Source of the DNA: a virus
Length of the DNA stretch: 30,795 bases
Strand: one strand, 5' to 3'
Virus record (IMG/VR): IMGVR_UViG_3300010373_000107
Location: 1 to 30,795 of that record
The position numbers and the translations under genes were made by a program. The notes under the pieces were generated by a model, which did no database searches, was not told the DNA's origin, and saw only the letters and a list, made by a program, of their open reading frames with translations. Each line of letters begins with the position of its first letter. The stretch's first letter is position 1. Shown piece by piece: positions 21,656-29,436 of this stretch.

Positions 21656-21712
21656 GTGGTAAGCGGACCGAGGTTATGGCGAGCGAACTGCCTGCACGAG
21701 GATTATGGCGCT

Positions 21713-21741
21713 AGTGTACGTCCGTTCCGGGGTGGCGTCAA
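21713..21741 (-). promoter_or_regulatory. Promoter B (HNH/packaging module)
   Basis: TTGACG at 21741..21736, a 17-bp spacer and TACACT at 21718..21713, followed by AGCGCC. This is a near-consensus sigma-70 promoter and the best promoter in the window. The -35 box begins 3 bases past the stop of the upstream gene. Leader length to the terminator hairpin is about 50 nt. Confidence 0.75.
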
Positions 21742-21743
21742 GG

Positions 21744-22115
21744 TCATACCGACGCCCCCGGCATGTGCAGCCCGAAAAACGCGATCACGTCGTGCAACTC
21801 CATCCGCTCGTGCTGGATCAGCTCGGCTTCGTCGGCGTTGACGTCGAGCACGAGCAGCCATCCGCGCGCAAGGCTGTACACCCAGAAATGCGCTGAGCAT
21901 CGCGCATGCGGATGAATTGCGTCACGGTGCGTGCATTGTGGCGTGGCCGCTATCGGTCGATCGTGGACCTTGATCGGCGCATGGCCGTACGGGCAGCGGA
22001 TCAACCCCTGGTGCGCCGGCGCGAACCGCCTGACGCGCAACGCGCCATCGAGCCAGTACAACCCGCTCGGCGCTGCCTGTATCTGCGACTCCGGACGTCC
22101 CGCGATTGCGCTCAT
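21744..22115 (-). CDS. Cys/His-rich protein of unknown function
   Basis: The 123-residue protein has a likely metal site: RCPYGHAPIKVH (about 40-51), CTHRDAIHPHARCSAH (about 61-76), followed by FWVYSLARGWLLVLDVNADEAELIQHERMEL. Cys and His spacing would suit one or two zinc ions. The gene stands alone between the early operon and promoter B and has its own extended -10 promoter directly before the ATG. Function is unknown. A regulator of late genes would fit its place but there is no recognisable DNA-binding fold. Confidence 0.7.
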   Translation of the reverse strand: MSAIAGRPESQIQAAPSGLYWLDGALRVRRFAPAHQGLIRCPYGHAPIKVHDRPIAATPQCTHRDAIHPHARCSAHFWVYSLARGWLLVLDVNADEAELIQHERMELHDVIAFFGLHMPGASV

Positions 22116-22120
22116 TCGCT

Positions 22121-22129
22121 AGTGTAGCA
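22121..22129 (-). promoter_or_regulatory. Extended -10 promoter D, likely leaderless
   Basis: TGCTACACT stands 5 bases before the ATG of the Cys/His-rich gene and continues AGCGA. A TG at this position is the extended -10 form. No good -35 is present at normal spacing. Transcription would start at or within a base or two of the ATG, giving a leaderless mRNA. Confidence 0.45.
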
Positions 22130-22153
22130 CCGCGGATGCCCTACGTGTGAGGG

Positions 22154-22594
22154 TCAAGTGCCTATCCTGGTATCTGGAGAGGGGAGCGGGATTGGCTGCG
22201 GCGCGAATATCAGATCGTCGGGAATGCGTCGCCGTCCACGCTCAATGTCCGAGAGATACGCCGCGCTCATTCCGCGAGCGCGCGCCGTCTCGTTGAGGCC
22301 GAGTCCGGCCTTCTTGCGTCTCGCGCGTAACAGTTCGTGAGGCATCGGCGCCGGTAGCTTGATCCAAGGATATTGATCGCCAGCGCCCATGATTACTTCA
22401 TATCCGATCGAGAGCGCACGCTGGATACTGGACGGCCTGATAATGACCGAGCCACTGCCGTCACCATGACCACAGCAGCAATTCACCGTCTGGACGCCAA
22501 CGTCATTGAGCGCGACGACGAGATCAGCGAGACAGGCATCGACCGTAATCGTCTGGCGGATCGTGATCTGTTTATCGGTGCCGTGCTTACACAT
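22154..22594 (-). CDS. CCGHG-domain protein fused to XRE helix-turn-helix
   Basis: The 146-residue protein has two parts. Residues 1-56 (MCKHGTD, DACLADLVVALNDVGVQTVNCCCGHGDGSGSVII) match a widespread small phage protein with a CCGHG metal-like motif (here CCCGHG at 39-44). Residues about 86-128 (HELLRARRKKAGLGLNETARARGMSAAYLSDIERGRRRIPDD) form a Cro/CI-type helix-turn-helix. The fusion may be a metal- or ligand-sensing repressor, but that is inference. It is the last gene of the early operon, and its start overlaps the upstream gene (ATG with TAA inside). Promoter D lies just after it. Confidence 0.75.
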   Translation of the reverse strand: MCKHGTDKQITIRQTITVDACLADLVVALNDVGVQTVNCCCGHGDGSGSVIIRPSSIQRALSIGYEVIMGAGDQYPWIKLPAPMPHELLRARRKKAGLGLNETARARGMSAAYLSDIERGRRRIPDDLIFAPQPIPLPSPDTRIGT

Positions 22595-22799
22595 TACCCT
22601 CTCCAGTCTCGGCCCGCAGTCTGCGCTCGCGTGCTCTGTTCATCGCGACGGCCTGCATCGCGTGCTTGATCGCGAATCCGTGAAACTCGGCGGGCGTTTC
22701 CTTCTCGCCGCCAGCCGCATACACCCGCCCGCTCATTGCCGCGTCCATAATTGCGACCTCCAAATCCTCGCGCGTGAATCTCTTGGGTTCGTCAGCCAT
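22587..22799 (-). CDS. Small early hypothetical protein
   Basis: The 70-residue protein reads EPKRFTREDLEVAIMDAAMSGRVYAAGGEKETPAEFHGFAIKHAMQAVAMNRARERRLRAETGEGNV. No family is recognised. It is helical and charged. Its last residues AETGEGN equal the end of the upstream gene product, because the 19-base junction sequence is duplicated. The ATG overlaps the upstream stop by 8 bases and has GGAGAGGG at good distance. Confidence 0.65.
   Translation of the reverse strand: MADEPKRFTREDLEVAIMDAAMSGRVYAAGGEKETPAEFHGFAIKHAMQAVAMNRARERRLRAETGEGNV
22592..22610 (-). repeat. Junction repeat copy 1 (19 bp)
   Basis: GAGACTGGAGAGGGTAATG on the minus strand, identical to 22797..22815. It codes for the C-terminus of one gene and serves as ribosome site plus start codon of the next. 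Confidence 0.85.
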
Positions 22800-23160
22800 T
22801 ACCCTCTCCAGTCTCAGCAGCCGAGGCCGTGATCTGCACTGACCCGAGCGCCGAGAGTGCTGACAGTAGGACGGATGCCGTATGCACCGCGTCTCGCTCG
22901 TCGAAATTGACCATCAGGTCAACGCCGTGCGCATGGGTGCTTTTCTGGCAGAATCGGATCCTGTCGGACGCGACGGGTGCGTTCGCCGTTTCGCCGCAAC
23001 ACATGTAGCTCTCGTAGGCCGGCGACGCAATCCGTGAGAGGGGATGGCAGTCTGTCCGGCCACGCGGGCAACCCTTCGGATCGTGAATGGCTCCGTCGTG
23101 GAGCGTTGGCACTTCGCGCTCGCGGGCCGTCATTCCTTCGGCTGTTGTATTATCGGGCAC
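22792..23160 (-). CDS. Small early hypothetical protein with Cys residues
   Basis: The 122-residue protein starts at a GTG with a strong ribosome site GGAGGAAGCC. It contains GCPRGRTDCHPLSR (about 30-43), MCCGETANAPV (about 53-63) and a C-terminal helix TASVLLSALSALGSVQITASAAETGEGNG. Several Cys/His residues suggest a metal site but no family is recognised. It overlaps the upstream zinc-ribbon gene by 11 bases. Its last residues repeat the end of the next gene product. Confidence 0.6.
   Translation of the reverse strand: MPDNTTAEGMTAREREVPTLHDGAIHDPKGCPRGRTDCHPLSRIASPAYESYMCCGETANAPVASDRIRFCQKSTHAHGVDLMVNFDERDAVHTASVLLSALSALGSVQITASAAETGEGNG
22797..22815 (-). repeat. Junction repeat copy 2 (19 bp)
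   Basis: Second copy of GAGACTGGAGAGGGTAATG, about 205 bases from the first, again providing the 3' end of one gene and ribosome site plus ATG for the next. Confidence 0.85.
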
Positions 23161-23398
23161 TTGGCTTCCTCCGGAAAAGTCTCATGTGTCTGATTGCGCG
23201 GCGGGTGAGGTGGGCGAGCAGGCCATCGGTTACGCGCTTGCCCTTCTGCCACGCTGTTTGAATCTCTCCATAGCACTGGCCGCAAACGTCTCTGACCTCG
23301 GGCGTTCTGATGTCTGCGAACAATCGATTGCGGTAAGCCATCGACCATTTCTCGCCGCATAGATCGCAAATGAACGCCTCTCCCAACCGTTCAGCCAT
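23150..23398 (-). CDS. Zinc-ribbon protein
   Basis: The 82-residue protein has FICDLCGEKW (Cys11 and Cys14) and VCGQCYGEI (about 38-46), a pair of CxxC knuckles 24 residues apart, which is a zinc ribbon. The tail is basic (KGKRVTDG, RRAIRHMRLFRRKPSAR), so it may bind nucleic acid. The ATG overlaps the upstream stop (ATGGCTGA). No specific role is known. Confidence 0.7.
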   Translation of the reverse strand: MAERLGEAFICDLCGEKWSMAYRNRLFADIRTPEVRDVCGQCYGEIQTAWQKGKRVTDGLLAHLTRRAIRHMRLFRRKPSAR

Positions 23399-23930
23399 TT
23401 GTCCCGCCTTGTGTTGGTGTTGGTGAGTGAGCGCGCGCTATTGCCTGGAACGCCGTGTCGCCCACACCGTCGCACTTCGCGTCGGGCTGGTACGACTCGG
23501 GCTTCCACACGCCCACGTTGCCGTCTTCTGTCAGGCCGAATACAACGACGCCTTCGCCGCGATGCACCTGCGCCGTGATCCATTCGTCAACCTTTCGCCG
23601 TTCCCGTTCTGCGCTATCTAACTGGGATTCAAGTTCCCGAATCCGAGTGTCCGCAGCTTCGATGATCCCCTGTTTCAGGGCTGTGAGTTCTTCTGCGCTC
23701 TCTAGACGGGAGCGGAGGGCCAGGATCTCGTTGATGTAGCCGCAAACATCATCCGCGAACGCATTGGCCGTGCGCTCCCATTCGGCCCGTGAATCTTCGG
23801 TGCGCGTGAGCGCGTCGTCGAGCCACAATACGGCCCGTTCATAGCCTGGCTGGCGACCGTCAGGCGTCGGTGTGCGAAAGTGCCGAATCGTATCGCGGAT
23901 TTCGTCCGGCATTTCCGTTGTCTCACTCAT
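23391..23930 (-). CDS. Coiled-coil early protein
   Basis: The 179-residue protein starts MSETTEMPDEIRDTIRHFRTPTPDGRQPGYERAVLWLDDALTR. A long helical region follows (about 70-115: EILALRSRLESAEELTALKQGIIEAADTRIRELESQLDSAERERRKVDEW) with heptad character. The C-terminal part (GVVVFGLTEDGNVGVWKPESYQPDAKCDG) is a short beta-rich segment. Small coiled-coil proteins are common among phage early genes and have no agreed function. The ATGA overlap and a perfect AAGGAGGG site for the next gene upstream are visible. Confidence 0.65.
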   Translation of the reverse strand: MSETTEMPDEIRDTIRHFRTPTPDGRQPGYERAVLWLDDALTRTEDSRAEWERTANAFADDVCGYINEILALRSRLESAEELTALKQGIIEAADTRIRELESQLDSAERERRKVDEWITAQVHRGEGVVVFGLTEDGNVGVWKPESYQPDAKCDGVGDTAFQAIARAHSPTPTQGGTNG

Positions 23931-24307
23931 TCGCCCTCCTTGCTCATGGCTAGGTCGATTGCTTCGCGTAAGGAGCGGCCCCAATAGTTCGGCACGTTAT
24001 CAGCCTCCCGAGGCGGCTCGAAGAACAGTCGGAATAGATCATCCTCGACTGAGAATCCGTTAATGTCGATTTCAGTTGTGGCCACAGTTTCAAAACTGAT
24101 ATGAGCGTCCGGCGCGGCACGCTCCTCCAGAAATTCCAGCCGCTTCGAGTCCCCTTCGGCCTTTGCGAGAGCGGAGAGGATGGTACGGATGTCGTCCCGC
24201 GATATGTGGGTGGGATGCCAGCATTCGGCGGGCTCCGTCGTGATTGCGGTCAACCCCTCAACGACTTCGGCTACCTGTTCCGGGCTGTACTCTGGTCTGT
24301 CAGTCAT
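23927..24307 (-). CDS. Early hypothetical protein
   Basis: The 126-residue protein reads YSPEQVAEVVEGLTAITTEPAECWHPTHISRDDIRTILSALAKAEGDSKRLEFLEERAAPDAHISFETVATTEIDINGF, then WGRSLREAIDLAMSKEGE. The LEFLEE and SLREAID motifs are typical of small phage proteins of unknown role. It is acidic and helical. ATG overlaps the preceding stop (ATGA), with AAGGGG as ribosome site. Confidence 0.65.
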   Translation of the reverse strand: MTDRPEYSPEQVAEVVEGLTAITTEPAECWHPTHISRDDIRTILSALAKAEGDSKRLEFLEERAAPDAHISFETVATTEIDINGFSVEDDLFRLFFEPPREADNVPNYWGRSLREAIDLAMSKEGE

Positions 24308-28271: not shown

Positions 28272-28588
28272 GGCTCACCTCCGAACAACGAGAGTTGCGG
28301 AGGCCGCGTGAAAAGCTCCGCGATCCCGTCGCGGATATACGATGCCAGAACCGACTTAGTGTTCACGTCCCAGTGAGTCAGTCCGTGATGTGCGCTGCAC
28401 ACTATACTGCCCATCATCTGCGGGACGAGCGCCATCGCATCCGCGAGAGAGCCGACGCCGGGATGTCCGCCGCCGCATTGCACGTTGCCATGCGCTTCCC
28501 AGTAAAACGCGCCGCTGTCAGTGCACTCCATCGTGATATACGTGCGGTGGAGTGATACCTCGACACGACGTACGACATCGGCGCTCAT
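28268..28588 (-). CDS. Small early protein with C-terminal clamp-binding motif
   Basis: The 106-residue protein begins MSADVVRRVEVSLHRTYITMECTDSGAFYWEAHGNVQCGGG and contains SIVCSAHHGLTHWD in the middle. Its end, PPQLSLFGGEP, has QLSLF (98-102), the canonical bacterial beta-clamp-binding pentapeptide (QL[SD]LF). This suggests it binds the host DnaN sliding clamp, either to recruit replication proteins or to block them. The rest is not recognised. It is flanked by the methyltransferase and the winged-helix gene, with four-base overlaps on both sides. Confidence 0.7.
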   Translation of the reverse strand: MSADVVRRVEVSLHRTYITMECTDSGAFYWEAHGNVQCGGGHPGVGSLADAMALVPQMMGSIVCSAHHGLTHWDVNTKSVLASYIRDGIAELFTRPPQLSLFGGEP

Positions 28589-29436
28589 GCCGCACCGCCC
28601 GCGAACAACGTGCGATCAGCCAGTGCGGCCGCGCACGCTGGGTTGAGCCAGAGCACCTCGGTCCTGACGCGAGCACCGTCAGCGCGGTGCTCGCGTTCCC
28701 TGCGCTCCCATCCCGCGTATAACTCGCGATCGTACAGATCGCATGCGTAGCCAGACAGCACAACCATTCCGCTGGTCGCGTGCAGCACCTCGGCAAGCGC
28801 GACGTGTTCAGCGTCTGTCATCTCGACGGCGTAAGCGGCGTTCCCGCGTGCCATGTTCCGCGTTGAATGCGGGTACGGCGGATCGCAGTACATCAGTGTA
28901 TCAGGCCCGTCGTGCTGCCGGATGACATCGGCCGCGCCTCGACGCTCGATCACAACGCCGGCCAGGCGCTCGACGAATTGGTCGATGTGTGCCGGGTAAT
29001 TGATCCAATCGTGCGCCGGCGTAGTACCCGACCTATTACTGTTTGCGCGGAATCCCGTCGGATACTCGCCGTTGGTCGACGCACTGCCGAATCCGGCGAA
29101 CGACCGGAAGATCGTTCGGCGCGCACGTTCTACTGGATCTACAGCGTCATCGTCGTCGTATGTAGCCTCGAATTCAGCGCGTGCGAACGGGGTGAGGCTC
29201 AGTAGCTCGGCAAGCCGCGCCGCCTGGCCGGGATCGCGCAGCACCCGGAACACGTTGACGACCGTATCCCATTGATCGTTGTAGACCTCGGCATATGAGC
29301 GTGGCTTACGCATGAGCACCGAGCCCCCCCCGCCGAACGGCTCAACGTAGACGCGGTGTGCAGGAAAGTGTGAGATAATCCACGGCGCGAGTATCCACTT
29401 GCCGCCGTGATACCTGAGAACGGGGCGTGCCTTCAC
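28585..29436 (-). CDS. DNA adenine methyltransferase, D12 class
   Basis: The 283-residue protein starts at a GTG overlapping the upstream stop (GTGA). It has N-terminal RYHGGKWILAPWIISHFP (about 8-25), motif I VEPFGGGGSVL (about 31-41), and motif IV YCDPPYPHS with DPPY (about 183-191). These are the SAM-binding and catalytic parts of N6-adenine methyltransferases of Dam/D12 class. It may methylate phage DNA to avoid restriction; no partner restriction gene is present, so it is probably an orphan. Recognition sequence is unknown. Confidence 0.92.
   Translation of the reverse strand: MKARPVLRYHGGKWILAPWIISHFPAHRVYVEPFGGGGSVLMRKPRSYAEVYNDQWDTVVNVFRVLRDPGQAARLAELLSLTPFARAEFEATYDDDDAVDPVERARRTIFRSFAGFGSASTNGEYPTGFRANSNRSGTTPAHDWINYPAHIDQFVERLAGVVIERRGAADVIRQHDGPDTLMYCDPPYPHSTRNMARGNAAYAVEMTDAEHVALAEVLHATSGMVVLSGYACDLYDRELYAGWERREREHRADGARVRTEVLWLNPACAAALADRTLFAGGAA

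Follow-up and report, generated by a model that had tools for sequence, protein, structure and literature searches.

A phage protein that joins a CCGH-family domain to a truncated Cro/CI-type helix-turn-helix

The small CCGH proteins of phages, such as ORF 24 of Escherichia phage V5, belong to PHROG 12958, which is annotated as of unknown function. They share with the protein described here, P0001, an MC start, a D-x-C-[IL] motif, an LN or LW pair and a T-x-x-x-C-C-G-H motif, followed by a strand, a helix and a strand; whereas P0001 also has a helix-turn-helix (HTH), these proteins have none. The CCGH family is large and its proteins are mostly small, and the domain was found in very different phages and also in bacterial and archaeal contigs. 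The domain is common in phages, yet it has no known function and no Pfam family covers it; one CCGH member matched the Pfam family DUF551. A described phage regulator of small size is Ogr of P2, a zinc-binding transcription activator (PMC3931495).

P0001, an early protein of a tailed phage, is encoded in the window analysed here, which is the whole 30,795-nt stretch of the virus record IMGVR_UViG_3300010373_000107. The gene and its parts are as follows.

22154..22594, minus strand: P0001 open reading frame (ORF), 146 aa, CCGH domain and truncated XRE HTH (from the ORF, Pfam and the codon signal)
22592..22613, minus strand: ribosome-binding region and start of P0001, 95% identical over 22 nt to 22797-22818 of the upstream gene
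22349..22594, minus strand: CCGH domain (phrog_12958-like) of P0001, residues 1-82 (from alignment A3, the profile, PHROG and AlphaFold2)
22211..22339, minus strand: Cro/CI-type (XRE) HTH of P0001, residues 86-128, helices 1-3 only (from Pfam HTH_31)
22211..22330, minus strand: HTH_3 match, the sole one in the 30.8-kb record
22157..22210, minus strand: C-terminal tail of P0001, residues 129-146, proline-rich, without HTH helices 4-5, low model confidence

The stretch 22154-22594 has no internal stop on the minus strand and contains stops on the plus strand; the protein reads MCKHGTDK...NCCCGHGDGSGSVIIRP...PHELLRARRKKAGLGLNETARARGMSAAYLSDIERGRRRIPDDLI...RIGT. The first 8 nt of the gene lie inside the end of the gene upstream (22587-22799), and this overlap together with the repeated start region is as expected in an operon with overlapping genes. 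When codon usage was scored with 14 ORFs of the window as the training set, the P0001 frame came out highest across the N-terminal domain, the join, the HTH and the tail to the stop. Because a single frame scored best throughout, a frame error is unlikely; with the codon signal unbroken and the other frames offering no better HTH end, it was rejected. The ORF is real, and the join of both domains looks real. The original prediction had claimed a CCGHG domain fused to a Cro/CI-type HTH and proposed a profile domain search, and both memberships were confirmed by profile in a single frame. HTH_31 and HTH_3 exceeded their curated cut-offs, and a CCGH-family profile made without P0001 (47 relatives) gave it 67.2 bits; the highest score among 999 shuffles was 4.1.

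Relatives of the CCGH domain were collected from 5 sequences at first and then from two IMG/VR scans (124 pattern matches), and a scan of 84,980 prokaryote genomes gave 26 pattern matches, 17 of which were confirmed. Alignment A3 (48 sequences) showed that D19, C21, T36, C40, C41, G42 and H43 are invariant, all of them being present in P0001, and that C2 and L29 are conserved at 90% or more. PHROG 12958 was matched by 36 of the 48 members and by P0001 itself (5.6e-7). Because the few residues that never vary in the family include Cys and His, the CCGH domain likely binds a metal, and C2, C21, C40/C41 and H43 are the putative ligands. In the AlphaFold2 model built with A3 the domain is compact (mean pLDDT 89), with the order strand-strand-helix-strand-strand-helix-strand. 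No PDB entry matched the domain by sequence, and no PDB fold match was significant (best E 0.38); the top match, the DNA-binding domain of T4 MotA, was rejected as a fold relative at this E value and a TM of 0.39. Three uncharacterised proteins of BFVD (A0A5K0U9X7, A0A3G4ZLU7 and A0A3G4ZQQ9 from Yasminevirus, Terrestrivirus and Barrevirus) matched the P0001 model with a Foldseek probability of 0.99-1.0 and an E of 0.008-0.04, and the CCGH fold may be present outside phages, in giant viruses. The V5-type CCGH gene of Escherichia vequintaviruses was also found in records named Campylobacter phage (MG065661, MG065658 and others), possibly by a host label or sample mix-up.

The first 56 residues of P0001 had been equated with a small phage protein; the family match stood, but the domain ends at about residue 80-82. 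In the closest subgroup of relatives (e.g. L047, L058, L059 and L064), the CCGH motif is followed by an h..M..GY(E/K) helix and a final strand. The segment SIQRALSIGYEV of P0001 aligns with this h..M..GY(E/K) stretch, which places the junction with the HTH near residue 82. The tails of 74 distinct CCGH relatives are very varied, with a median of 45 and a maximum of 199 residues after CCGH. Tail exchange is thus usual in the family, with unrelated tails joined to the same domain.

Pfam analysis of the C-terminal part gave HTH_31 at 1.2e-8 (35.6 bits, cut-off 27; profile positions 5-43 of 64) and HTH_3 at 6.1e-6 (26.6 bits, cut-off 23; profile positions 1-40 of 55), the matches falling in residues 88-128. 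The XRE-type domain predicted after the CCGH part was thus recovered by profile; however, it is incomplete and has helices 1-3 only. The last third is absent, and the part is not a complete five-helix domain. The model helices are found at 86-95, 100-106 and 111-118 only, followed by disorder, with pLDDT below 50 at 130-138, and the missing part is not encoded in other frames downstream. The recognition helix (SAAYLSDIERG) is intact. The match of this HTH to full-length phage repressors (L300 and L298) was similar to its match to small CxxC+XRE proteins (L313, L302, L299 and L333). The search of defence families gave nothing but generic HTH matches.

We put at about even the chance that P0001 is a small metal-binding and DNA-binding accessory transcription regulator of the early phase. 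The N-terminal alpha/beta domain would hold a metal ion by C2, C21, C40/C41 and H43, and in the metal-bound state it might be a rigid scaffold, or contact itself or a partner protein. The short HTH would bring the protein to DNA, and P0001 would then act on transcription in an accessory manner during the early phase. The simplest candidate target is the gene just downstream, which has a TACACTAGCG box. This role is favoured by the HTH_31 and HTH_3 scores above the cut-offs, the intact recognition helix, the continuous coding frame and the confident N-terminal fold, and also by P0001 being the sole XRE (HTH_3) match in the record. Moreover, other small phage proteins have a Cys motif followed by a short XRE (L299, L302, L313, L333 and L138). 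The invariant residues of the family, the neighbouring CCGH and CxxC+XRE genes of L034/L138 and the existence of zinc-binding phage activators such as Ogr also speak for this role. Against it, the XRE fold lacks helices 4-5 and the model is weak there, so that the HTH may fail to fold or dimerise alone.

The main rival to this role, which is less probable, is that P0001 is a CCGH protein whose HTH is a non-functional remnant. The HTH would be a decayed or passenger piece from illegitimate recombination without DNA binding; the CCGH domain would be the working part, as a host-directed or metabolic accessory. The HTH indeed breaks off at profile position 43 of 64; the proline-rich tail after it has no helix. 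Because CCGH domains occur with many unrelated tails, varying widely in the 74 distinct relatives with one DUF551-matching member, the HTH may be another passenger. However, helices 1-3 are near enough to the consensus to pass the Pfam cut-offs, the codon signal is best in the P0001 frame up to the stop, and several small phage proteins also have a short XRE with little past helix 3 or 4.

The remnant explanation is also favoured by the failure to find a second CCGH+HTH protein in the searched records. None was found by tblastn of 50,697 phage records and 72,556 plasmids, nor by profile-guided scans of IMG/VR and the 84,980 prokaryote genomes, which use short patterns. DNA patterns in IMG/VR (CCGH followed by an LSD[IL]E-type motif at a distance of 178-218 nt) revealed no fused relative; these patterns need a TGC-coded first Cys and a restricted linker range, and the fusion searches may leave out close relatives of the window's record. 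A search of every ORF in the first 264 loci fetched revealed no other protein with both domains; no phage DNA resembling 22000-24000 was found, nor did any close relative turn up that could be compared for split genes. The join seems to be rare on the basis of these searches; without a fused relative to compare, selection acting on the joined protein cannot be shown. Among neighbouring XRE genes in CCGH phages, only those of L034/L138 (one distant phage and one contig) were found close together, with a separate CxxC+XRE gene about 0.1 kb downstream of the CCGH gene. A CCGH protein of L022 (3845-4288) has a short, helix-turn-helix-like C-terminal tail, RRLTDYVFSRGLVSVRKAARIMDCQVEDITEGL, without a Pfam match; this is possibly a second kind of CCGH fusion.

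The gene order on the minus strand begins in the early part with a D12-class methyltransferase (28585-29436), a DUF1376 protein, an AAA ATPase-matching protein, a VRR-NUC protein and small genes, and continues with P0001, a 123-aa gene, HNH, terS and terL. The 123-aa gene (21744-22115, minus strand), directly after P0001, encodes a Cys/His-rich stretch CPYGH...CTHRDAIHPHARC and has no Pfam or PHROG match. As P0001 lies between the early genes and HNH/terS/terL, a late regulator could sit there. Two sequence features follow P0001.

22117..22126, minus strand: TACACTAGCG -10-like box, exact, 5 nt before the ATG of the 21744-22115 gene; the -35 is weak
21709..21741, minus strand: promoter-like TTGACG-17-TACACTAGCG, with the exact box at 21718-21709, in the gap before the HNH gene; the number of such sites is not above chance

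The original prediction had placed promoters D and B beside P0001; exact TACACTAGCG boxes do lie at 22126-22117 and 21718-21709, but promoter-like sites in the early region are no commoner than chance (2 found, compared with 2.4 expected from shuffled sequence). With at most one mismatch, TACACTAGCG had 3 matches against 0.66 expected, a number reached in 3 of 100 shuffles. The two exact boxes are the best promoter candidates. The first one lies about 27 nt past the P0001 stop codon, and its TACACT is 5 nt from the ATG of the 21744-22115 gene; because this box ends so close to the ATG, the mRNA of that gene may be leaderless.

P0001 had also been regarded as an early-to-late switch: the last gene of the early operon, it would sense a metal or ligand and turn on the packaging or late genes, or shut off the early ones, like lambda Q or P2 Ogr. 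We consider this unlikely. P0001 directly precedes the run of the 21744 gene, HNH, terS and terL on its own strand, with TACACTAGCG boxes at 22126 and 21718, and it is the only XRE protein in the record; however, the promoter-like sites are not above chance, and antiterminator or late-activator families (Q, Ogr or RinA-ArpU type) are absent from the Pfam and PHROG matches. A packaging-linked late switch is expected to travel with the packaging module, and the comparison covered 25 records whose terminase is related at about 55-60% identity. These terminase relatives had no CCGH gene in one search, which had no positive control, and a second search gave 0 in the terminase loci, all of its 183 matches being in CCGH-fetched loci. 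They also had no same-strand XRE gene within 5 kb upstream of terL. In these relatives terL is preceded by XRE genes at a distance of about 5.6-19 kb, several of them as divergent pairs; a single one is nearer, about 1.1 kb upstream, and is on the opposite strand (distances set by hand from located genes). The lack of a CCGH gene in these relatives counts against the switch: gene position is what speaks for it, and the gene is not conserved beside the packaging module. Lysogeny control, with P0001 as the sole Cro/CI-type protein of the phage serving as repressor or Cro, is highly improbable: the 30.8-kb record has no HTH_3 match besides P0001, but it is possibly incomplete, the XRE genes of the terminase relatives lie elsewhere at the distances given above and partly in divergent pairs, and P0001 has neither a divergent partner nor a repressor C-terminal domain.

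The fusion is a guilt-by-association clue to the role of the CCGH domain; the clue is weak, because there is a single fusion without relatives. P0001 also offers one small protein for testing metal binding and DNA binding together. That it stands for an undescribed class of phage regulators, in which CCGH would be a metal- or ligand-responsive module controlling the DNA binding of a minimal XRE, is doubtful. If true, the HTH-less CCGH proteins across unrelated phages might be regulators as well.

Comparison with known systems showed that TYW3 (PF02676) has the register D..I...I..[LI]N...T..[ST]CxG[HR], with SCxG[HR] in the archaeal L266 and L272-L295, in common with the CCGH domain over 31 columns, whereas TYW3 has Arg in place of His. 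One phage CCGH homologue is annotated as 'methyltransferase TYW3'. Homology to TYW3 was rejected: the profile-profile match was marginal (P 0.011; 1 of 200 column shuffles was higher), TYW3 was outside the 50 best fold matches, and P0001 has no TYW3 Pfam match. Ogr and Delta of P2-like phages resemble the proposed role of P0001 in being small zinc-binding phage transcription regulators (PMC3931495); however, they have the C4 zinc motif CX2CX22CX4C, and no sequence relation to P0001 was seen. The small CxxC+XRE phage proteins (L299, L302, L313, L333 and L138) differ from P0001 in their N-terminus, which is CxxCxGxG-like and about 20 residues long versus the 80-residue CCGH domain, and their HTH_31 matches run to positions 48-57 of 64, beyond that of P0001. 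Like P0001, they carry an N-terminal Cys motif followed by a short XRE with ...YLSD[IL]E.GRR, and these small CxxC + short XRE proteins are the closest known architecture.
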